From a virus: 30,184 nt of DNA. The translations under genes were made by a program, and so were the position numbers. The stretch spans positions 1 to 30,184 of the IMG/VR virus record IMGVR_UViG_3300010403_000242; one strand, 5' to 3'. Each line of letters begins with the position of its first letter. Within the stretch, counting starts at the first letter, position 1. The notes below the pieces were generated by a model. The model worked only from the letters and a program-made list of their open reading frames with translations. It was not told the DNA's origin and made no database searches. Shown here one piece after another: positions 10,512 to 30,019 of the stretch.

Positions 10512-10691
10512 GTGGGCCTAGCCCCGGTCATCGAGTGCAAAGAATGCGGCGGTCCTATGGAAGCCGTTATCGATGAACCTATGGGACGGTTGTATCGCTG
10601 CATTAACTGCACGGTTACGAAAACCGTCCTTTTCGATAAGCATCCGCACCGCTTGGACAGGGTACAGGAAGGGGGACGCTATGCCGCCTGA
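10512..10691 (+). CDS. Small zinc-ribbon protein
   Basis: A 59-residue frame from GTG 10512. It has CKECGG near residue 9 and CINC near residue 30, an intact four-cysteine zinc ribbon, followed by a basic tail. Its 3' end overlaps the endolysin start at 10681 by 11 nt, so the endolysin ribosome site GAAGGGGG lies inside this gene. There is no clear ribosome site of its own. It may bind nucleic acid or help another phage protein; no specific function can be given. Confidence 0.5.
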   Translation: MGLAPVIECKECGGPMEAVIDEPMGRLYRCINCTVTKTVLFDKHPHRLDRVQEGGRYAA

Positions 10692-11070
10692 TAAACGATG
10701 GACGTACTTCACTGACGAGGAGGTGGCAAACCTTGACACCGAGTTCGTCGCAAAGCTGGACCAAGCAAGGCACATCGCTGGGATACCGTTCGTCATTACG
10801 TCTGGCTTCCGGTCCCCTGAGAAGAATGAATCCATCCTGGGAGCCGGGGCTGTCGCTGATTCGGCGCATCTCAAGGGGTTGGCAGTGGATCTGCGGGTCG
10901 AGAACTCGCACGAGGTCGCTCTCATCCTGGACGCGGTCAAGACGGTAGGAATCACGCGTCGCGGGGTCTATGTCAATCAGGACTTCCAACCGGTCCATGT
11001 GCATGTGGATCTGGACCCAGAAAAACCTGACGAGGTGATATTCATCAGGCAGGAAGGGGCAAAGGCTTGA
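10681..11070 (+). CDS. Endolysin, M15-family L,D/D-Ala-D-Ala peptidase
   Basis: 129 residues, cutting peptide bonds in host peptidoglycan at the end of infection. The SAHLKGLAVD motif (His63 and Asp70) and the PVHVHVD motif (His108 as the third ligand) are the zinc site of M15_3/VanY-type peptidases; ITSGFRSPEKNE before it is also typical. There is no signal peptide, so it needs a holin. Start chosen at ATG 10681 because GAAGGGGG sits 6-7 nt upstream; a longer in-frame version from 10573 lacks support. The following genes look like its membrane partners. Confidence 0.85.
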   Translation: MPPDKRWTYFTDEEVANLDTEFVAKLDQARHIAGIPFVITSGFRSPEKNESILGAGAVADSAHLKGLAVDLRVENSHEVALILDAVKTVGITRRGVYVNQDFQPVHVHVDLDPEKPDEVIFIRQEGAKA

Positions 11071-11355: not shown

Positions 11356-11679
11356 ATGGAAAAATTGGCAATGCGGATCTGGGTCGCCGATATTGAATCC
11401 GCACTTGATAAGAAGCTAACCAAATGGAAAAAAGAGAGCAAGATCGAAAACGGAGAGGCCATCCAGTTAAGCTGGCAATTTGAGCAGACGCATTTCATCC
11501 TAGACATTTTCTGGGAAAACCATAAAGAGACGGCACAGCTTCAATATCTGGGGCCACGCGTGAGTCAGCGATTCAATTGGCATGGGTTAAATGATCGGAC
11601 TTACAACAAAATCATAGACCGGGTGGGAAACTTAGCCCAGATTACGATGCACCCCCCAGTAGATTCAACGGATGGATGA
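11356..11679 (+). CDS. Hypothetical protein in lysis region
   Basis: 107 residues from ATG 11356, with GGGAGGAG about 10 nt upstream. It is soluble, alternating helix and strand, with many Trp and aromatic residues (LSWQFEQTHFILDIFWEN). It overlaps the next coiled-coil membrane gene by 8 nt, so the two are probably made together. The family is not recognised; there is no signal peptide or membrane segment. Confidence 0.5.
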   Translation: MEKLAMRIWVADIESALDKKLTKWKKESKIENGEAIQLSWQFEQTHFILDIFWENHKETAQLQYLGPRVSQRFNWHGLNDRTYNKIIDRVGNLAQITMHPPVDSTDG

Positions 11680-12181
11680 GCGCCGGGATGATTGGCGGCA
11701 AGGGGTAGATGAGAATTTAGCGAGCCTGAACGCCGGCCAGCGGGTTTGGGAGCGCGAGATGACCGTTATAAGGAAGCTCCTGGGCGAGTTTGACCGCCTC
11801 CTACGTGGCGACATCGAAAAGGACACAGATGGCGCCATTGCCCGCCTCCACCAGCAGGAAACCGAAATAAACCTCTTAAAAGCGGTTGTTTTGAAGGACA
11901 AGGCTGGAAATAAGGGCCTGATTGGTCGGATTGAGGACCTAGAGTCAGGCGAACGTCGCTCAGAGACACGTTTAAAGCTCTACATTGCGCTGATTGGCCT
12001 TTTATCTGCCCTTGCCGTAGGCGCGCTTACCAATATGGACAAAATAGGGGCCTTTTTCGGCTCCAAAACGCCAGACCCGCTGGATCAGATGATCGATAGA
12101 GCTAAGAATCCGCCACGAAAACACCTCAAAATCCGCATAAAAGACGACGAAATCCAACGCATAGAACGCAGCGATAATTAA
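11672..12181 (+). CDS. Coiled-coil membrane protein, candidate holin/lysis accessory
   Basis: 169 residues. Residues 1-95 are charged and helical with a likely coiled coil, residues about 102-118 form one membrane span (LKLYIALIGLLSALAVGAL), and the tail is charged and Lys/Arg-rich. This outline (long N-terminal coiled coil, one late span) is common in phage lysis cassettes. It lies one gene beyond the endolysin and holin-like genes. No family is claimed. The block ends here; a short non-coding gap follows. Confidence 0.5.
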   Translation: MDERRDDWRQGVDENLASLNAGQRVWEREMTVIRKLLGEFDRLLRGDIEKDTDGAIARLHQQETEINLLKAVVLKDKAGNKGLIGRIEDLESGERRSETRLKLYIALIGLLSALAVGALTNMDKIGAFFGSKTPDPLDQMIDRAKNPPRKHLKIRIKDDEIQRIERSDN

Positions 12182-12462: not shown

Positions 12463-12874
12463 ATGGGACAACGCTGATGATGATATCGAGTATTCAAAAG
12501 AGCTTAACGATCCGCGGCTTGAAAAGATGTTTGCAGACCAGGAACAAACCCCAGATGAGAAGGCGGTTCGGGAATGGCTGCATGAAAATAAGCATGTTTT
12601 CGACAAAACGTGGAGTTCGGCAGAGGTCGCCCACATGGCGATCACCTGCGGATTCAAGCCGGAAGCGGTGTATGCCGTGATGTCCTTCTGGCGGGATGCG
12701 ATGGATGGGACGCGTTTCGAGAACCGGGCAGCTATGGATCAATACTGCTTCGAGATCGCCTGCGAAGAACGGGAAAATCTAGAGAAAAAGCGGCATTACG
12801 TAAAGGAATTGGACCTCGGGCCACTATGGGTTGAACTAACAAACAACACAGTTACAGGGGAGGAGCAGCTATGA
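12452..12874 (+). CDS. Hypothetical acidic helical protein
   Basis: 140 residues when read from ATG 12452, chosen because AAAGGGGA lies 6-7 nt upstream; a frame extension to 12362 overlaps the previous gene fully and is not used. Acidic, soluble, mainly helical, with NEWDNADDDIEYSKELNDP at the start and two Cys in the last third. Not recognised. Its stop overlaps the start of the exported protein that follows (ATGA). Confidence 0.5.
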   Translation: MRNEWDNADDDIEYSKELNDPRLEKMFADQEQTPDEKAVREWLHENKHVFDKTWSSAEVAHMAITCGFKPEAVYAVMSFWRDAMDGTRFENRAAMDQYCFEIACEERENLEKKRHYVKELDLGPLWVELTNNTVTGEEQL

Positions 12875-13170
12875 AAAAACTACTCGTCATCATGCTAATC
12901 GCCGCACCGCTGGCCGCTTACGAGAAACCAGGTAACCCGGACCGCTATATGTCCTTCGGGATTGAGGCATTCAAAGGCCAAGAGGCTGGGATCGCCAAAA
13001 CAGCCGATACCAATGGGGGGACCGCTGGCGGAAAGCTCGATATCCGGTTGCCGATCAGCTCAAACATCACGCTGAACGCCTTCGGCGAGAACACTGGAAT
13101 CAACAACAACAAGGGGTACACGGAAGGCTACAAAATCGGCTTCGGCGTCAGAATCTACGTGAAGGACTAG
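12871..13170 (+). CDS. Small exported beta-rich protein
   Basis: 99 residues. A short Sec signal peptide (MKKLLVIMLIAAPLAAYE) has likely cleavage after residue 16. The mature part is Gly/Asn-rich with alternating strands (KLDIRLPISSNITLNAFGEN, then YKIGFGVRIYVKD), ending in an aromatic/aliphatic strand as small outer-membrane barrels do. It could be a periplasmic or outer-membrane protein that changes the host surface, for example by superinfection exclusion (inference). Ribosome site GGGGAGGAGC is just upstream. Confidence 0.5.
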   Translation: MKKLLVIMLIAAPLAAYEKPGNPDRYMSFGIEAFKGQEAGIAKTADTNGGTAGGKLDIRLPISSNITLNAFGENTGINNNKGYTEGYKIGFGVRIYVKD

Positions 13171-13567: not shown

Positions 13568-13705
13568 ATGACTTTTACCTTAACTATCGCAGAAGTCGAA
13601 AGGTTGCTTCGGATGCTTCGCCGATCGAACGGGTACAACTCCGGCGAACGCTTGGAAAACGTACTGGTAAACAAATTCGAATCCACACTTTTTGAGGTGG
13701 CCTAA
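13568..13705 (+). CDS. Hypothetical 45-residue protein
   Basis: ATG 13568 comes one base after the previous stop. The sequence is helical with charged faces (IAEVERLLRMLRRSNG, then RLENVLVNKFESTL), compatible with a small dimeric helical protein. A GAGGTGG ribosome site for the next gene is in its last codons. The family is not recognised. Confidence 0.4.
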   Translation: MTFTLTIAEVERLLRMLRRSNGYNSGERLENVLVNKFESTLFEVA

Positions 13706-13706
13706 C

Positions 13707-15164
13707 ATGCGACGAAAAATGGCGAATCTCAAGCTCACCATCGAATTGTTGATTATCGATATACTGGATGATGCCGGGTTAGCAGAAGACCGATCAAACG
13801 AGATCGCCACCAAAATCATGTCGAAAATAACGAAGTTTTTGATCGTTTCCGCTCTACTTCTATTCCCAGTAAAACTCTTAGCCTCGTGCGATCCACCGTG
13901 TGGTTTTGGCGAGAGCTGCATGAGCTGTAGCTGCGGCAGCGGGCCTTGGACCGGGTCGTGTTTATGTTCATCGGTCATGGACGTGTGTGTATGCCCCACA
14001 GACCCCCCTTGTCCTACGCCAAGTTGTGATTCTGACACCGATTGCGCGGTTCCGCCACCACCTGTAAGCCCCCCACCGCCGCCACCTGGTGCCTCATGTG
14101 GCGATGACTGTGGGTGCGCCCTGGGGTACACCTGCGCTGGCGGTTATTGTGTGCCTGGTGCCAATTCCTGCGAACCGAGTGGCGGAGGATGCGACGATTC
14201 AGCCTGTGCGCCCGATGGCCTCACCTGCTGCCCGAATAAAACAGGGTGCTTCATGGGATGTGGTAGCGGTGCGCCTCCCCCCCCACCTCCGCCGCCTCCG
14301 TTGGGTCCGCCACCACCTACATGCACCCCTTGGGGTCATTTGGCGTGCGGTGGATGGTGCAATGAGTTCGCCTGCCCCGCTGGTACCCGTTGCTGGACGC
14401 GCTCATGCAACCAAGCGATATCTGGGGACCCTGACTGCCCTGTAGATGGCGGATCATCGGTCTGCAATAACTGCATCGCCGACCCCGGGTGCGTGGTACC
14501 CCCTCCTCCGCCCCCACCGCCCCCGCCACCTCCTCCCCCACCACCTCCCAGCCCGCCGCCACCGCCCCCTGTTGTCACGTTCTCGTGTGGGGCGAATACA
14601 ACCATCTGCGGCAAGATTAAGCCCCTGGATGGCTCAGCGAATGGTTTGAGCGGGGTCCTGGTGCAGCTTCGCCAATCAAATGGAGCGATTGTAGCGACCC
14701 AAACAACGGGCGAATCCGGGGTTTACAGCTTCGGTCCCCTTATTTCCGGTGAGCGCTACTTCGTAAAACCAGTCCTGATGCGTAAACAGTTCGCGTTGCC
14801 AGCTTACGATTCCAAGATCCCTGGGCAACCGCCAGCGAACTTCCAAGTGCGGGGAATCCCGGCAATGGTCAAGTTTACGGGATTACCACCGGCTACCTTA
14901 GCCCTATTGCACGCAGATGTGGCCTATACGGGCCCCTTAGCCCCTCCGTCAAGCTATGCGAACGTCTATAGCGCGATGACAGACGCGACAGGCAATACCT
15001 CAATTGCCGTCCCTGCCGGGTCCAAGTATTTCATCACCTGCTGGGCGCCTGTCATGGAGAGGGGCCGGAGCCATTATGAGCGGTTCCCTTCGGCCGGCGG
15101 GATCTCGATCGCCGGGGGAGCCATTCTGCAACCACGACAAACCGTAACGGGGAGCTGCCAATGA
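13707..15164 (+). CDS. Cys-rich, poly-Pro, exported multidomain protein
   Basis: 485 residues from ATG 13707 (GAGGTGG 8 nt upstream). Residues 1-37 are a charged helical extension; a Sec signal peptide (MSKITKFLIVSALLLFPVKLLAS) begins at ATG 13818, residue 38. The mature part has 38 cysteines by my count, arranged in modules such as CGDDCGCALGYTCAGGYC and separated by poly-proline linkers; the longest, about residues 265-289, is nearly all Pro. After it, residues about 295-350 (CGKIKPLDG to GERYFVKP) resemble a carboxypeptidase-regulatory-like or Cna-B-like beta sandwich. Probably a disulphide-bonded surface protein that binds host or environmental polymer. I recall nothing like it in phages. 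Confidence 0.6.
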   Translation: MRRKMANLKLTIELLIIDILDDAGLAEDRSNEIATKIMSKITKFLIVSALLLFPVKLLASCDPPCGFGESCMSCSCGSGPWTGSCLCSSVMDVCVCPTDPPCPTPSCDSDTDCAVPPPPVSPPPPPPGASCGDDCGCALGYTCAGGYCVPGANSCEPSGGGCDDSACAPDGLTCCPNKTGCFMGCGSGAPPPPPPPPPLGPPPPTCTPWGHLACGGWCNEFACPAGTRCWTRSCNQAISGDPDCPVDGGSSVCNNCIADPGCVVPPPPPPPPPPPPPPPPPSPPPPPPVVTFSCGANTTICGKIKPLDGSANGLSGVLVQLRQSNGAIVATQTTGESGVYSFGPLISGERYFVKPVLMRKQFALPAYDSKIPGQPPANFQVRGIPAMVKFTGLPPATLALLHADVAYTGPLAPPSSYANVYSAMTDATGNTSIAVPAGSKYFITCWAPVMERGRSHYERFPSAGGISIAGGAILQPRQTVTGSCQ

Positions 15165-15493
15165 TGAGCGAATACTTCGTACTTCGGGCGATCAGGCGGG
15201 AAGTGAAGCAATACGAGCACAGCTATCAGGATGTCGTGGGTTATTCCGGCAACTTGGCCGGCGCTATATTGGGACTCAAACGAGCGATGGAGATCATTAG
15301 GGCTGATGCTGAGCGACGCGCCGGGTTTTGGCGTCGCTGGACACATCCAGCACGCGCGTTCGATAAGGCTGAACTCCTCCATGCGCTCATTACCGCCTAC
15401 AACTGTATCTGTAGAAGCGACAGGAAAAAAGCGCATAAACGATTGAAGGAAGTCTATGAAAAGTACAAAGACGCCTTGACACCTAGAAGCTAA
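15161..15493 (+). CDS. Hypothetical basic helical protein
   Basis: 110 residues, start overlapping the previous stop (ATGA). Basic and almost wholly helical, with YQDVVGYSGNLAGAILGLKR and a Lys-rich C-terminus, no signal peptide and no clear membrane span. The promoter for the next block overlaps its last codons, so it is the last gene of this transcript. Not recognised. Confidence 0.5.
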   Translation: MMSEYFVLRAIRREVKQYEHSYQDVVGYSGNLAGAILGLKRAMEIIRADAERRAGFWRRWTHPARAFDKAELLHALITAYNCICRSDRKKAHKRLKEVYEKYKDALTPRS

Positions 15494-15504
15494 GATTATC
15501 TAAT
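15476..15504 (+). promoter_or_regulatory. Sigma70-type promoter for recombination block
   Basis: TTGACA at 15476-15481 matches the -35 consensus fully. After 17 bases, TCTAAT at 15499-15504 matches 5 of 6 bases of the -10. The ribosome site AAGGAGG and ATG 15528 follow at normal distance. The spacer carries AAGCTAAGA (15487-15495), which also occurs at 12229-12237 in the other regulatory gap, so both may answer to one regulator. It overlaps the end of the upstream gene. Confidence 0.65.
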
Positions 15505-15527
15505 AGCCTCACTTTAAGGAGGCAACG

Positions 15528-15728
15528 ATGCAAAAGAAACAAGGGAACAGGGGAATGCCGATCAGTATCTACCTCGGAGATCGTCGGTTATCAGACAAGC
15601 GGCGCGCAGTGCTACAGAAATTCGCCAAAGCCGACAACCGGTCCGTCTCGGAAATCATTTGGCTTGGGTTTCTTAACGGAATCTCTGAAACATTGCGAAG
15701 TGCGTTGCAGGCAGAGGAAGAAAATTGA
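15528..15728 (+). CDS. Ribbon-helix-helix-like small protein
   Basis: 66 residues behind AAGGAGG. The outline fits an RHH (Arc/MetJ-type) DNA binder: a basic start, a strand (MPISIYLGDRRL), then two helices (SDKRRAVLQKFAKADN, then SVSEIIWLGFLNGI). It is the first gene after a strong promoter, where a self-regulating repressor often sits. DNA target unknown; the AAGCTAAGA element in the promoter is a natural candidate. Its stop overlaps the next start (TGATG). Confidence 0.55.
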   Translation: MQKKQGNRGMPISIYLGDRRLSDKRRAVLQKFAKADNRSVSEIIWLGFLNGISETLRSALQAEEEN

Positions 15729-15976
15729 TGTACCACGATTGTCGGTCATCGCTTTGCGATACGCCACACTATGAAAACGATGACCATTCTGACGATTGTC
15801 TCTGTGAGCTATGCCACGACCATTTCGATGATTGGAACTCTTGGAATATCTACCCGGAATGCGACGGATGCCTAAATGCCATGTCCCACTGGATTCATGA
15901 GAATACGGATTTCGTGGGATGTCCTTTCCCGGAGCTTTGCGACTATTCCAAATCATGCCGGAAGGGGGAGAATTGA
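15728..15976 (+). CDS. Cys/His-rich acidic small protein
   Basis: 82 residues from ATG 15728, which shares a base with the previous stop. About nine Cys and six His, in pairs (CLCELCHDH, ECDGC, CPFPELC), in a very acidic setting, suggest one or two metal sites. The next gene begins at TTG within its stop codon (TTGA). No family is recognised. Its place directly before the exonuclease suggests a recombination or early takeover role, by context only. Confidence 0.5.
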   Translation: MYHDCRSSLCDTPHYENDDHSDDCLCELCHDHFDDWNSWNIYPECDGCLNAMSHWIHENTDFVGCPFPELCDYSKSCRKGEN

Positions 15977-16842
15977 CGGAAGTCACAGAAGCGCCGGACA
16001 GGACTAAGTTTCTTGGAGGTTCGGACATAGCCGGCGTCCTGGGACTCTCCCGCTGGAAAACGCCGCTCTCCGTTTGGTCGGAAAAAACTGGCCAGGTCGT
16101 AAAAAAAGACGAACCCAAACTATATAAAACTCTTGGCATCAGACTTGAGGAAGTTGTCGCCGAAATGTTCATGGAGGAAACCGGCAAGAAACTGATCCGG
16201 GTTAAAGAGCGCCGCGTGCATCCGAAGTACCCGATGTTCGTCGCCCAAATCGACCGCCTGGTGGTCAATGAAGATGCTGTTTGGGAAGGCAAAACTGCCA
16301 CGCTATGGCTCAAGAAAGAATGGGCTGATGAGGAGATCCCCCAGGAGTATATTTGCCAGGTTATGTGGCAGCTCGCGATCACCGGCCGCAAGGTGGGATA
16401 CATTTCGGTTCTCATCGGCAACGAACAATTTCTGACAAAGAAGATCGAAAGAGACCCGATCATGATTGCCGAGATGCTCAAGCGCGCCAATTCATTCTGG
16501 CAGGAGTTCGTGATTCCAAAAGTGATGCCGATGCAGATCACGGCTTCTGATGCGGACACCCTGTACGCCTTATTCCCGAACGCAGAGCCGGACACTCAAA
16601 TCGATTTAGGAGATGAGGGCGCGAAACTCATCGAAGTGCGAAACGCGCTTCATCAAGACAATATCAACCTTGAGAAACAGATCGACCAGGTGGAAAACGA
16701 GTTGAAAGCCCGTTTGAAGGACAAGGAATCCGGCATCGCCGGTAAATGGCGCGTGTTTTGGAAGAACCAGAAGCGCAAGGGCTACACCGTCGAGCCTAAA
16801 GAGTTCAGGATGTTCAATATCAGGGAAGTGAAGGGAACTTAA
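15973..16842 (+). CDS. YqaJ-type (lambda Exo-like) recombination exonuclease
   Basis: 289 residues from TTG 15973, chosen because AAGGGG lies about 5 nt upstream and the TTG overlaps the previous stop; the longer frame lacks a ribosome site. It degrades one strand of duplex ends so that the annealase RecT can load. Residues 14-36 (FLGGSDIAGVLGLSRWKTPLSVW) are the YqaJ signature. The PD-(D/E)XK site is visible as Glu60, Asp94 (QIDRL) and EGK at 105-107. Residues about 220-270 form a coiled coil. RecT lies two genes on, giving a full single-strand annealing recombination pair. Confidence 0.9.
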   Translation: MTEVTEAPDRTKFLGGSDIAGVLGLSRWKTPLSVWSEKTGQVVKKDEPKLYKTLGIRLEEVVAEMFMEETGKKLIRVKERRVHPKYPMFVAQIDRLVVNEDAVWEGKTATLWLKKEWADEEIPQEYICQVMWQLAITGRKVGYISVLIGNEQFLTKKIERDPIMIAEMLKRANSFWQEFVIPKVMPMQITASDADTLYALFPNAEPDTQIDLGDEGAKLIEVRNALHQDNINLEKQIDQVENELKARLKDKESGIAGKWRVFWKNQKRKGYTVEPKEFRMFNIREVKGT

Positions 16843-17052
16843 ATGCGAGATGAGGATAAAGCGGTAATAAAAGCGATGGCCTACGTAGTAGGTGGCATTT
16901 TTGGATTGGCTTTTTTGTTGGCTTTTATTTTGGGGCTTCCTCCCGCCTACTACCAGAGCAAAATAACTGGCTACAGTTTTTGGGAGTGTTTTTTCGCTGG
17001 CAGTACAGTGAAGATCGCTATTTTAAAGGAGGACCGCAATGGCAAGCACTGA
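16843..17052 (+). CDS. Small membrane protein between exonuclease and recT
   Basis: 69 residues, starting immediately after the exonuclease stop. One strong span (about residues 13-34, VVGGIFGLAFLLAFILGLPP) and a second weaker hydrophobic stretch (SFWECFFAGSTVKIAIL). It overlaps recT by 14 nt, so it carries the RecT ribosome site in its coding sequence. Function is unknown. A membrane gene between exo and recT is unusual. Confidence 0.55.
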   Translation: MRDEDKAVIKAMAYVVGGIFGLAFLLAFILGLPPAYYQSKITGYSFWECFFAGSTVKIAILKEDRNGKH

Positions 17053-17923
17053 ATCAACCAAACAGGCTTTACAGACGACCGAGAAACCGAAGGATTTACG
17101 AAACCTGATCAAAGACGCAGCCGCGGAACTATCCCTGGCCCTTCCTGAGCACATGCGGGCCGAGCGCCTTGTGCGGATCGCGCTGACCTGTATCCGCATG
17201 ACGCCGAAGCTGGCGAATTGCACGCCAGAAAGCTTTCTGGGAGCCCTATTCACAGCCGCGCAGCTTGGCATCGAGCCGATCGCCGGCCGCGCGTATCTGA
17301 TCCCTTTCTACAACTCCAAGAAAAAGCAGGATGGCTCTTGGCACAAGGTCTTAGAGGCTCAGTTCGTCATGGGCTACCGTGGCCTGGTCGAACTGTTCTA
17401 CCGCCATGAAAAGTCAGTGATGATCAACTGGGGGATCGTTAAAGAGCATGACAATTTCGGGTATGAGCTTGGTACAACGGCTTTCCTAAGACACATCCCT
17501 GCGAAGGAAGACAGAGGAGAGACCATCGGTTTCTACGTCATGGCCGACCTCGGAAACGCGAAACCGTTTGCCTACATGAGCCTGGATGAGTGCCTGGAGC
17601 ATGGTCGGAAGCATTCGAAAACCTATGACGAGAAAACTGGCAACTTTTACGACGACTCCCCCTGGTCAACGAACCGGGATGCGATGTGCCTCAAAACCGT
17701 TCTTTTGCAGCTTGGCAAGGTCCTACCGTTATCCTTCGAGATCCAGCGCGCGATCGAGCAGGACGAAACGAGCCGGGAATATCGAAAAGGGGTGGGGGAT
17801 ATTCTTGACACGCCGTCTACGACCAATTGGACGGAACCTGCGCAAATCGAAGGGAAGAAAACCGACCCAGAACCACCGCCAGAGACAAAGAACGCTGAGC
17901 CTGAAATTCCGTTCGGCGATTAA
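17039..17923 (+). CDS. recT: RecT family single-strand annealing protein
   Basis: 294 residues behind AAGGAGG. It anneals complementary single strands during phage recombination and repair. Residues about 28-75 (LPEHMRAERLVRIALTCIR, then FLGALFTAAQLGIEP) and 79-125 (GRAYLIPFYN, then QFVMGYRGLVELFYR) are the conserved RecT core; the WSTNRDAMCLKTVLLQL segment near 210 is also typical. The C-terminal 60 residues are acidic and Pro-rich and end in EIPFGD, an acidic tip like those that bind SSB partners. Pairs with the YqaJ exonuclease. Confidence 0.92.
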   Translation: MASTESTKQALQTTEKPKDLRNLIKDAAAELSLALPEHMRAERLVRIALTCIRMTPKLANCTPESFLGALFTAAQLGIEPIAGRAYLIPFYNSKKKQDGSWHKVLEAQFVMGYRGLVELFYRHEKSVMINWGIVKEHDNFGYELGTTAFLRHIPAKEDRGETIGFYVMADLGNAKPFAYMSLDECLEHGRKHSKTYDEKTGNFYDDSPWSTNRDAMCLKTVLLQLGKVLPLSFEIQRAIEQDETSREYRKGVGDILDTPSTTNWTEPAQIEGKKTDPEPPPETKNAEPEIPFGD

Positions 17924-17939: not shown

Positions 17940-18230
17940 ATGAAGACATCAACTGCCATTCTGATGTTCGTTGCCAGCGCTACGAGTGCGATCACGTGTC
18001 CGAGTAACTGCACCGAATGGAAAGGCAATTGCGCCTGCGAAGCTAAACAGGAAGCGATCCCATCTGTGAAACCAAGCGATGAACTCCCGCGAAAAGAGCA
18101 ACAGCTTTGCTGGCAAACCGGCGAGTGCTCGGTAGTCAACGTTCCGAACCTTGCAGCAGAAGACTTGGCCATGGATAAAGCCAAAGCTGATGCGGATTCG
18201 GAAGGGAAGCGTGCGGCCGGCATCAAATGA
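17940..18230 (+). CDS. Small exported Cys-containing protein
   Basis: 96 residues from ATG 17940 behind AAGGGGAC; a longer in-frame reading from 17586 lies inside recT and is rejected. The N-terminus (MKTSTAILMFVASATSAITC) is a signal peptide. The mature part has six Cys (TCPSNCTEWKGNCAC and two later) and a charged helical tail. CPSNCTEWKGNCAC resembles the Cys modules of the 13707 protein. Likely periplasmic or surface; function unknown. Confidence 0.5.
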   Translation: MKTSTAILMFVASATSAITCPSNCTEWKGNCACEAKQEAIPSVKPSDELPRKEQQLCWQTGECSVVNVPNLAAEDLAMDKAKADADSEGKRAAGIK

Positions 18231-26190: not shown

Positions 26191-26562
26191 ATGGCAACGA
26201 TCGCCGGTGCCGATCTTGGAGATTCAAAAACTGATGAGTTCACACCTAAATCCTCGTTTCTGGAATCAGTCAAATTCGATCGTAAAGCCAACACTCTCGA
26301 CATCACATTCAAGTCCGGTTCAATGCGCCGTTACATATCGGTCTTCCCGTCGACCTACGAAAGTTTTCGTCAGTCTCCCGACCACGGATCATTTTTCGCT
26401 CGTGCCATCAAAGGGCAGCTCAGCTCAGCTCCTATCGTCAACAAAGACATTGGGCGACAACGTACAACTGCACTTAAAAAAGTCACTCAACGGAGGGTTT
26501 TAAATGCTGGAATCAAACGGATCGCAGGGACCGTCGCACGCGCCTTCGGGCCCGGACTTTAA
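26191..26562 (+). CDS. KTSC-domain protein
   Basis: 123 residues from ATG 26191. Residues about 21-75 (SSFLESVKFDRKANTLDITF, MRRYISVFPSTYESF, DHGSFFARAIKG) fit the small KTSC domain, found alone in phages and fused to lysyl-tRNA synthetase in some bacteria, with no established activity. The tail is basic. The alternative frame over 26150-26503 lacks recognisable features. The next gene starts within its 3' end, overlapping by 59 nt. Confidence 0.75.
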   Translation: MATIAGADLGDSKTDEFTPKSSFLESVKFDRKANTLDITFKSGSMRRYISVFPSTYESFRQSPDHGSFFARAIKGQLSSAPIVNKDIGRQRTTALKKVTQRRVLNAGIKRIAGTVARAFGPGL

Positions 26563-26938
26563 CGCAGAATTTCGTCAAGCGCAAGAGACCGGCGATTACG
26601 ATTTCGTTTTGCGCACCGCGCATCAATCGCACAAGATGCTGTTGGATTTACGCGACGCGGTCAAAGCGGCGATGTACCCGGGGCGCTCAGCGCATTCAAT
26701 CGCCATGGGGCTTAACTTCATCGAAAACATGATCGGGCAAGCGGCCGGGCAGTTAAGCGCGCTCAGGCAAGCCGAGAAGCAAACGCGCGATGCTTTGAAA
26801 TCGGGAAACAAAGCGTCGAATTTGGAAGTTGTCGGTCCCGAGAAACCGGATGAGCCGCCGGCCGAAGCACCGCAGGAACCGGCGCCCGAGCAACCCGCAG
26901 CCCCGGTAGAAGTGCCACAGGAGCCCGCCAGTGCCTGA
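26504..26938 (+). CDS. Hypothetical helical protein with acidic Pro tail
   Basis: 144 residues from ATG 26504, ribosome site GGAGGGT about 7 nt upstream. Helical to about residue 95, including SHKMLLDLRDAVKAAM; then a Pro/Glu/Ala-rich tail (APQEPAPEQPAAPVEVPQEP) probably disordered. Starts inside the KTSC gene. Not recognised. Such acidic tails mediate protein binding in many phage early proteins (inference). Confidence 0.55.
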   Translation: MLESNGSQGPSHAPSGPDFNAEFRQAQETGDYDFVLRTAHQSHKMLLDLRDAVKAAMYPGRSAHSIAMGLNFIENMIGQAAGQLSALRQAEKQTRDALKSGNKASNLEVVGPEKPDEPPAEAPQEPAPEQPAAPVEVPQEPASA

Positions 26939-27239
26939 GCAGCGAACGTTAGACAACCCGAACGATATCGCCATCCGCGAAAGCCAGAAGATCCAGCGCC
27001 TGGAGCAGGGTCGATCAATCGCCGAGCGCGCCGCGGCCGAAAAAAAGAATGTCATCAAGCAATACAGCGAATCGTTTACATTTCGTTTCCGCAAGATCAA
27101 AAACGGTTCTTTCTCTGGTCTCTGGGAATTGGCCGCGCTCAAGAAAGACGGCAAGGTGGACGAGATCATCACGGACGCTGACGCGCTCCCGAACGTTCTG
27201 GAAGCAATCGGTAACATTTTCGCAAACCGGGGATTTTGA
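26931..27239 (+). CDS. Hypothetical 102-residue protein
   Basis: GTG 26931 overlaps the previous stop by 8 nt. Basic helical N-terminus (IRESQKIQRLEQGRSIAERAA), then an alternating beta region (SFTFRFRKIKNGSFSGLWEL) and a helical end (LPNVLEAIGNIFANRGF). Unknown family; the codon pattern favours this frame. Confidence 0.5.
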   Translation: MPEQRTLDNPNDIAIRESQKIQRLEQGRSIAERAAAEKKNVIKQYSESFTFRFRKIKNGSFSGLWELAALKKDGKVDEIITDADALPNVLEAIGNIFANRGF

Positions 27240-28133: not shown

Positions 28134-29574
28134 AGCCGATATAAGCGCTGCAATCGGCCTTGCGTGGCAAATTGGCCGACTTGATTACCGGCGCCGCCAG
28201 ACCCAGAAGTATCTGAAAGCCAAAACCGAGCAAGCCTGGGCACGCGGGTGCCGGAAGATTTACTGGGAGTGCACCAGGCGACTGGGTAAATCAAGCGAAC
28301 TTCTCGCGACGTTTTCGGAGCATTGCCAACAGACACCCGGATGGCGCGCAGGGTTCTTTGCTCCGGTCAAAGACGGTCTCAAAGATTACATCGAACCGAT
28401 CATCGAGGAAACGTTCAAAGATTGTCCTTCCCACCTGCGACCGTTCTTCAATGAAGCCAGACTGATGCTGGAGTATGCAAACGGCGCCGTGATTGTCTTC
28501 CGGGGTTCGAACAACAAACAGCACCGTATCCGCCGCGGCCAGGAGTTCCATGAAGTCGGTATCGATGAGTGCCGGGACGTGGATGAGCTGGACGTTTTGG
28601 TGGACTCGGTTCTGATGCCATCGCTATTTGATAAGGGCGGCCACATGTACATGAGTTCAAGCCCGGCCGACACGCGGTCGCATCCGCTTTTCCGCTACCG
28701 TCAGCAGGCTGAATCAGGCGGTTGGTTGATCAAGATCACCATCTGGGACGCCAACAAGATGGACCCGTTTGTCTACCCGATTGAGCGAATCAGAGAATGG
28801 CAGCGCGAGACACTGCAATCTGTCGACGGAGAATCCAAGTGGAAACGGGAATACGAATGCGAATGGGTGATCAACGTCAGTCGAGCTGCTGTGCCGGAAT
28901 GGTCGAACGCTTTCGTCATGGACATCCCGCGTGATCCTTACTACCAGTTCTACCAACACTACGTGGCCATTGACTGGGGCTATCGTGATTTTACCGCTAT
29001 CGGGTTTGCCACCTACATCTACCGACGCGCCAAACTCCAAGTGGAAGGTGAACTTGCGTTCTCTGGAAAAGAAGTTCGCAGCGACCGAATCTCGGAAGCA
29101 ATCACCGATCACGCGAAGAAACTCTGGGGACCGGATTGGTCCGCCAGGCAAGTCAGCGATTCCGCAGACCCCATTCTGATCAACGAGCTGAACAAGTTCC
29201 CAGGCATGAACGTGGTACCGGTTGAGAAGGCGCATACGCTCGAAGCGATGCTTAACGAGTTCCGCGTGCTCGTGAACCTAGGCAATGTGGTTGTCTCGCC
29301 TAAATGCCCGCTCACGCTTCATTGTTTATCAAACGCCATCTGGGATGAGCATCGGAAGAAACTGGATCAAGACGTGTTCGCTCGCCATTTCGATCATCTG
29401 ATGCAGCTTGTCTACATGACCCGTATCCTGGATACAGCTTCGAACCCGATCCCGCCTGATTTCATGATCGATGGGCAGCGGATCATCGAACTCAATTTCG
29501 ACAAAAAGAAGTCCCCGACTCAAGCTGGCCGCACGCTTGAGGAAGCGTTCAGCGGGGCGAAGAGGTTCGGATGA
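28108..29574 (+). CDS. terL: Terminase large subunit (packaging ATPase and nuclease)
   Basis: 488 residues; pumps DNA into the head and cuts concatemers. ATPase: a modified Walker A, RRLGKSS (about residues 57-63), Walker B VGIDE (150-154) and the coupling motif SSSPAD (183-188). Nuclease: Asp289 in VAIDWGYRD, Asp351 in SDSADP and Asp429 in the HFDHL region are the expected acidic residues of the RNase-H-like fold. Length is normal for TerL. ATG 28114 is a possible shorter start. It sits before a small gene trio and a probable portal gene, as in many phages. Confidence 0.93.
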   Translation: MGMAAQITEADISAAIGLAWQIGRLDYRRRQTQKYLKAKTEQAWARGCRKIYWECTRRLGKSSELLATFSEHCQQTPGWRAGFFAPVKDGLKDYIEPIIEETFKDCPSHLRPFFNEARLMLEYANGAVIVFRGSNNKQHRIRRGQEFHEVGIDECRDVDELDVLVDSVLMPSLFDKGGHMYMSSSPADTRSHPLFRYRQQAESGGWLIKITIWDANKMDPFVYPIERIREWQRETLQSVDGESKWKREYECEWVINVSRAAVPEWSNAFVMDIPRDPYYQFYQHYVAIDWGYRDFTAIGFATYIYRRAKLQVEGELAFSGKEVRSDRISEAITDHAKKLWGPDWSARQVSDSADPILINELNKFPGMNVVPVEKAHTLEAMLNEFRVLVNLGNVVVSPKCPLTLHCLSNAIWDEHRKKLDQDVFARHFDHLMQLVYMTRILDTASNPIPPDFMIDGQRIIELNFDKKKSPTQAGRTLEEAFSGAKRFG

Positions 29575-29807
29575 GCCAGCTACAGATGAAAAGTGCCACG
29601 GTCGACGTCACCGGGTACGTGATCAACCGAGATATCAAACTGCCGTCATGGGTCAAATGCTGTGTCTGCGGGAAACCGCCGACCGCAACGGATTGGCTTA
29701 AACCAGTTAATCCTGCACCTGATTGCCGGCGGTTTGTGCATTTAAGTCATATCCATGACGGCCCGCAGCTCTCAGCAGAAGCGGGTTACATAGCGAGGAA
29801 CGCATGA
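29571..29807 (+). CDS. Small zinc-binding protein after terminase
   Basis: 78 residues, ATG overlapping the TerL stop (ATGA). KCCVCGKPP near residue 30, then a later HLSHIHDG segment, give Cys and His for one zinc site. Recalls HNH-like or zinc-knuckle fragments near terminases but lacks a full HNH core. Its stop overlaps the lipoprotein start. Function unknown. Confidence 0.5.
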   Translation: MSQLQMKSATVDVTGYVINRDIKLPSWVKCCVCGKPPTATDWLKPVNPAPDCRRFVHLSHIHDGPQLSAEAGYIARNA

Positions 29808-30019
29808 ACAAAGTATTGGCAATCTTGATGCTGTTATGTTTGACGGGGTGCGGGTGTACCAGGAAAGCGCGGGTGGAACAATACCGCTTGGCGTTACGTG
29901 ACACCAACGTGATCTTGACTGAATGCCAGGAACAGAACGCTCAAAAGAGCGCCATGATCCGCAGGCAGCACGCCCAGATCGCTGCACTCAAGAAACAACG
30001 CAGGCAAATGGGTAAGTGA
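29804..30019 (+). CDS. Small lipoprotein, Rz1-like candidate
   Basis: 71 residues. MNKVLAILMLLCLTGCGC is a lipoprotein signal with lipobox LTGC (Cys16 lipidated). A coiled-coil helix (ECQEQNAQKSAMIRRQHAQIAALKK split by loops) and a basic end follow. It could be an outer-membrane spanin part or a surface lipoprotein. It is not next to the endolysin, so the spanin role is only a suggestion. GTGA overlap with the next gene. Confidence 0.5.
   Translation: MNKVLAILMLLCLTGCGCTRKARVEQYRLALRDTNVILTECQEQNAQKSAMIRRQHAQIAALKKQRRQMGK

Follow-up and report, generated by a model that had tools for sequence, protein, structure and literature searches.

A putatively exported cysteine-rich protein with polyproline linkers, encoded outside the tail module of an environmental phage

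The window, meaning the whole stretch of DNA analysed here, is one whole viral record of 30,184 bases (label G000), and it is probably incomplete, since larger related records run to 35-43 kb. It derives from a real phage genome, as the first-pass annotation had taken it to do: a terminase, a DNA methyltransferase and a match to a T7-type internal virion/tail family are encoded together with RecT, YqaJ and the M15 endolysin. The gene of interest is flanked by lysis genes on one side and recombination genes on the other, an accessory position away from the tail module (Table 1), with several ORFs between it and the last ORF of the lysis cassette. One cassette ORF (11672-12181) has a hydrophobic stretch that probably spans the membrane.

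Table 1. Features of the gene, its surroundings and putatively exported proteins of related phages
Feature	Position	Strand	Remarks
Full ORF, 485 aa	13707-15164	+	Longest ATG reading, with Shine-Dalgarno; stop overlaps next start (ATGA)
37-residue N-terminal extension ahead of signal peptide	13707-13817	+	Absent in ortholog
Predicted Sec signal peptide from internal ATG	13818-13886	+	Rule-based reading; aligned with ortholog MKIKLFIISLMVSARVLA/DC
Cys-rich region 1, 12 Cys	13887-14045	+	
Polyproline linker 1, runs of 4 and 6	14052-14087	+	
Cys-rich region 2, 12 Cys	14097-14261	+	
Polyproline linker 2, runs of 9 and 4	14274-14318	+	
Cys-rich region 3, 10 Cys	14322-14492	+	
Polyproline linker 3, runs of 17 and 6	14499-14570	+	
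Prealbumin/Cna-B-like (SdrD B-like) beta-sandwich	14598-14858	+	Pfam SdrD_B; AlphaFold model; fold match
Second all-beta C-terminal domain	14859-15161	+	Conserved in ortholog; lower model confidence
M15 endopeptidase (endolysin)	10573-11070	+	Start of lysis cassette common to phage group
Two conserved lysis-cassette ORFs, 11356-11679 and 11672-12181	11356-12181	+	Also upstream of gene in ortholog's phage
Short, putatively exported beta-barrel-like protein	12871-13170	+	
Small ORF 15161-15493 (overlaps by ATGA) and Arc-like repressor 15528-15728	15161-15728	+	Downstream
YqaJ/RecE-like exonuclease and RecT	15919-17923	+	Downstream
Large tail-module protein with signal peptide	G003 L036:6828-9617; G001 L042:9573-12029 (28572-31028); G012 L033:1-1716 (-)		G012 copy cut by contig end
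Small, putatively exported AAGI(K) protein	Window 17940-18230; L003:12052-12378 (-); L035:6834-7133 (G003); L039:18057-18371 (-) (G013)		

The frame at 13707-15164 is open and intact on the plus strand and encodes 38 cysteines among 485 residues; its stop-free stretch of 497 codons compares with a maximum of 327 in 1000 mononucleotide shuffles of the region. Seven nucleotides 5' of the ATG at 13707 stands a Shine-Dalgarno sequence, GAGGTG. Codon usage over the whole gene scores the true frame best of the three forward frames, but the scoring is weak, one antisense frame comes slightly above the true frame in raw codon usage, and the composition of the Cys regions is too skewed for them to be judged in this way, so that the case for a real gene rests on ORF length and in-frame homology. 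The original observation is right and reflects more than chance.

The homology is provided by one ortholog of 419 aa in another viral record (IMGVR_UViG_3300036790_000073, here G010; L029:4369-5628, minus strand). Because that protein opens directly with its signal peptide, preceded by a GAGG Shine-Dalgarno sequence, the functional form in the window may be one of 448 aa that starts at an internal in-frame ATG (13818) without a Shine-Dalgarno of its own. The 37 residues ahead of it may stem from a separate small gene that became joined in frame with the signal peptide. By eye, a 45-aa ORF at 13568-13705 and this extension look similar (LTI...).

Signal peptides were judged throughout by rule (n-, h- and c-regions) rather than by a trained predictor, and by this rule both orthologs have one. 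The signal peptide claimed in the first-pass annotation is therefore present, only it begins at 13818 (MSKITKFLIVSALLLFPVKLLAS/C, the slash marking the cleavage site) rather than at 13707. Its end can be read either as a perfect lipobox, LLAS/C, or as a signal peptidase I site, LLA/SC. Since the ortholog reads VLA/DC at this point, lipidation is not conserved and cleavage by signal peptidase I is at least as likely. With the lipobox not shared by the ortholog and no recognisable anchor, the mature protein could simply be periplasmic.

All 38 cysteines fall inside the 448-aa form, in three clusters and, for the remaining four, in the C-terminal part, an arrangement in line with the small modules and long poly-Pro linkers described at first reading; the longest proline run reaches 17 residues. 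In the proline tracts all four Pro codons are intermixed, which rules out a slippage artefact and indicates that the tracts belong to the protein and do not stem from a simple repeat in the DNA. No Pfam match was obtained for the N-terminal 251 aa.

The C-terminal part is about 197 residues long and all-beta, and its four cysteines are invariant between the two orthologs. Its first domain passes the Pfam threshold for SdrD_B (E 1.4e-7; 32.1 bits against a cut-off of 29.7), and the ortholog passes that for CarboxypepD_reg (35.1 bits against 32.3); a model of full-length SdrD falls far below its cut-off on the window protein. AlphaFold prediction from a single sequence was useless (pLDDT 38), but with the two-sequence alignment mean pLDDT rose to 75.5, with values of about 75-92 in the first C-terminal domain. 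As modelled, this domain has a seven-stranded prealbumin-like fold that superposes on the B domain of staphylococcal UafA with Z 11.5 and an rmsd of 1.9 Å over 81 residues, SdrD and Cna-B pilin domains being fold matches of lower rank. The Cna-B-like sandwich proposed from the letters is thereby confirmed by both the Pfam score and the UafA match. Foldseek finds the same general beta-sandwich in many phage baseplate, fibre and tail-collar models as well, and for this reason the fold alone cannot separate an adhesin from a virion part. In strand 1 the window protein reads CGKI and the ortholog CGTL (by alignment only); because the ortholog has no Lys at that position, no conserved isopeptide bond is expected, and what the two proteins conserve is Cys.

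Anchoring features were sought along the protein. Neither ortholog contains an LPxTG sorting signal, and the window protein ends in ...GSCQ with no anchor-like or membrane-spanning tail, no cell-wall-binding Pfam match and no further hydrophobic span apparent in the 448 aa. A cell-wall-anchored adhesin was accordingly rejected for lack of a sorting signal, so that of the suggested "extracellular adhesin or cell-wall protein" the first half retains an export signal and an adhesin-like domain in its favour, and the second half falls away. A defence-system protein was likewise rejected, PADLOC returning no match. Small disulphide-rich modules and a missing anchor would also suit a soluble protein released into the medium as an antibacterial, anti-grazer or signalling ligand rather than held at a surface; domain and profile searches detected no toxin family or catalytic domain, however, and no immunity partner was recognised, and we consider such a ligand very unlikely.

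The M15 endopeptidase and the small ORF 11356-11679 of the lysis cassette gave access to related phages, and the ortholog was detected by unfiltered tblastn on the records so retrieved. Searches of the same records with the single protein missed it, as such searches filter low complexity or need exact peptides. No relative was found by single-protein searches of viral contigs with the C-terminal half or the Cys half, by tblastn against phages and plasmids, or by an exact-peptide search of 84,980 species genomes, which reaches close relatives only; no third member emerged from a profile run over all retrieved related loci or from a viral scan with the two-sequence alignment. A look through the literature on exported virion proteins and on Cys-rich, polyproline phage proteins found nothing relevant. 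No PHROG match was obtained. The initial impression that nothing similar occurs in phages was nearly right and needs amending for the one ortholog and for a fold shared with many phage baseplate and fibre proteins.

The ortholog has the same architecture: signal peptide, 32 cysteines, a PPPPPTTTTTTTTTTTTTAPPTPT linker and a homologous C-terminal part, with a Thr-rich stalk where the window protein has polyproline. Over 186 aa the C-terminal halves are 28% identical and align 25.7 SD (~26) above composition shuffles, against 1.9 SD for the Cys/Pro part, where the two proteins are alike in composition only. Judged by these alignments, the C-terminal halves are clearly homologous, and it is the C-terminal part that is conserved and the Cys-rich part that is fast-changing. 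The ortholog locus runs from lysis cassette to gene, small ORF, Arc-like ORF (by eye) and DNA-processing genes, here too outside the tail module. Both G010 and a further phage, G011 (IMGVR_UViG_3300045391_001131), share an 833-aa tail protein with the window at about 40% identity; G011 is without the gene and carries an integrase at the corresponding place, close to the end of its contig, and the gene is absent from the related phages other than G010. From this distribution, an intact ortholog in G010 and absence from G011, the gene is best described as accessory but maintained.

These comparisons bear on whether the gene is merely a recent capture from a host, a secreted matrix or adhesion protein with no selected function in the phage. 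Known phage collections hold no relative, and B domains of this kind are mostly cellular, as a captured gene would lead one to expect. Yet the ortholog sits at the same place in a phage whose tail protein is only about 40% identical, and the exact-peptide search, within its reach, turned up no relative. The frame of this ortholog, a break in relatives having been named as one observation that would refute the first reading, is open, and with the four C-terminal cysteines kept in so diverged a phage, long maintenance in phages is indicated. Recent capture is thus improbable.

Position relative to the lysis genes raises the question of a periplasmic or outer-membrane protein that aids lysis or envelope disruption, as a spanin-like or lysis-accessory factor. 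In both phages the gene follows the M15 endopeptidase and the conserved lysis-cassette ORFs, the LLAS/C end is lipobox-like, and Pro-rich exported proteins beside lysis genes recall Rz1. Against this role stand the length of 448 aa, the beta-sandwich domains, the lack of a transmembrane partner in the same protein, the unconserved lipobox and the several ORFs that intervene before the gene is reached. A spanin proper, of Rz1 or unimolecular type, was rejected on size, lipobox and the lack of a further hydrophobic span, and the wider class of lysis helpers has little to recommend it.

Export by itself appears to be a habit of this phage group, on the rule-based reading. Credible signal peptides occur on several proteins per genome, including some beside or within tail modules. 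In the window, the protein encoded at 955-1839 has one and adjoins a tail protein; in G011, signal-peptide ORFs match a tail fibre PHROG (E 8.5e-5) and a baseplate family (1e-9), the protein at L032:4446-5462 being one that matches a tail fibre family; and in G001, G003 and G012 a signal peptide heads a large protein of the tail module, whose length is 800-930 aa in the first two. Applied to lambda, T7, P22 and HTVC034P as controls, the same scan picked out only a few proteins, namely lambda Lom, the T7 spanin and evident false positives.

Because tail-fibre-like proteins of the group also carry signal peptides, having one is compatible with a virion role, and the earlier claim that the protein is something "rather than a virion part" is not established. 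The main rival to a surface function is accordingly a virion adhesion fibre or decoration that would be exported and then incorporated into the particle, either extracytoplasmically or when the cell lyses. Many phage baseplate and fibre proteins have Cna-B-like folds, and receptor-binding proteins usually pair one conserved end with one variable end. Nevertheless, in both phages the gene stands after the lysis cassette and away from the tail module, no PHROG structural family is matched, and G011 has the tail proteins and lacks the gene. To our knowledge, disulphide-rich modules and polyproline stalks are also unusual for virion fibres. We rate a virion part as unlikely, though as the most serious of the alternatives. 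A broader proposal would join both ideas: these phages would Sec-export a set of adhesion proteins, among them tail-fibre-like ones and the Cys/polyproline protein, which would acquire disulphides and fold outside the cytoplasm before serving on the cell surface or being taken up by virions at lysis. We regard this as a long shot; if true, part of a phage adhesion apparatus would be made outside the cytoplasm, and signal peptides on tail-module proteins make such extracytoplasmic building of adhesion parts a testable idea.

The reading we tentatively prefer, at a probability of roughly 0.45, is that of an exported accessory ("moron"-type) protein that would act at the host surface in masking or adhesion. 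The host Sec pathway would export the protein, the Cys modules would form their disulphides outside the cytoplasm, and the polyproline stalks (Thr-rich in the ortholog) would keep these modules away from the anchor or docking part. The conserved C-terminal part might dock on a common envelope partner of the hosts, and the fast-diverging Cys modules might meet a changing target, their rate of change being what a recognition surface should show. In this way the infected or lysogenic cell would have its surface altered, with a receptor masked against further phages or adhesion promoted. Points in favour of a surface role are the intact ORF, the overlapping operon arrangement, the signal peptide in both orthologs, the fold matches to adhesin and pilin B domains, the location between lysis and recombination genes in both phages and the patchy presence, together with the lack of a PHROG structural match. 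Other points weigh against it: a gene placed after the lysis cassette may be expressed late, when a change of surface matters less; the signal peptides of the tail-fibre-like proteins count here too; and a lysogenic role in particular finds no integrase in the window or in G010.

Among known systems, a precedent for the proposed function is given by phage exclusion lipoproteins such as Llp of T5 and BF23, a receptor-blocking lipoprotein produced in the infected cell (PMC4728585). Like these phage-encoded exported proteins, the window protein would act at the host envelope, but it has a large, modular build and an unconserved lipobox, and its gene stands between the lysis cassette and recombination genes, where the Llp gene stands beside that of the receptor-binding protein (PMC4728585). 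A firm assignment as an Llp-type lipoprotein was rejected on the lipobox. Lambda Lom and Bor are likewise exported accessory proteins encoded outside the essential modules; they are an outer-membrane protein or a short lipoprotein, without Cys modules or polyproline stalks. The SdrD B, Cna-B and CarboxypepD_reg domains of MSCRAMM adhesins (UafA, SdrD) and sortase pilins share the fold of the first C-terminal domain, but MSCRAMM adhesins such as SdrD and UafA combine these with ligand-binding A domains and an LPxTG anchor, neither of which was found in the window protein. The Ig-like or Cna-B-like domains of phage virions (baseplate, tail-collar) have the same general beta-sandwich by Foldseek and sit in long structural proteins; the comparison with them is one of fold only. 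By the features tested, the window protein is a phage-encoded, putatively exported protein of surface type and a member of neither the MSCRAMM nor the Llp group. In model systems, most of the known exported phage proteins that alter the host surface are small lipoproteins or barrel proteins. A protein of the present build (large, stalked, rich in disulphides, adhesin-like), retained in two diverged phages from the environment, would give that role a new architecture.

As to the host, the barrel-like exported proteins hint at a diderm. The tail protein and the terminase have as a distant named relative a phage recorded with Silvanigrella aquatica, and the terminase also two Pelagibacter phages; these relatives are too distant for a host to be named from them. 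An alignment of the M15 endopeptidase found no relative among the genome contigs searched.

Several smaller observations concern other proteins of the group. The exported beta-barrel-like short protein at 12871-13170 shares NPDRY(M/F)S(F/I)G with that at L034:9720-10070, minus strand (G012 28719-29069), both near the lysis cassette. Four otherwise different phages have in common a small, conserved exported protein in which a few cysteines directly follow the signal peptide and which ends in AAGI(K). Two similar exported proteins of ~200 aa, at L031:3972-4574 (G011) and L034:7362-7970, minus strand (G012 26361-26969), share FYIY.DKG.R.NH..PSGWMGD.GD...; they may be carbohydrate-binding beta-sandwiches, and the one in G011 has no Pfam or PHROG match. 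Acidic Cys-rich small ORFs at window 15725-15976 (10 Cys), near the recombination genes, and at L031:1406-1627 (G011) resemble each other by eye, as if they were related zinc-binding proteins. A small lipoprotein-like ORF at 29804-30019 (MNKVLAILMLLCLTGC/GC), close to where the window ends and with a coiled-coil-like tail, is a possible outer spanin.
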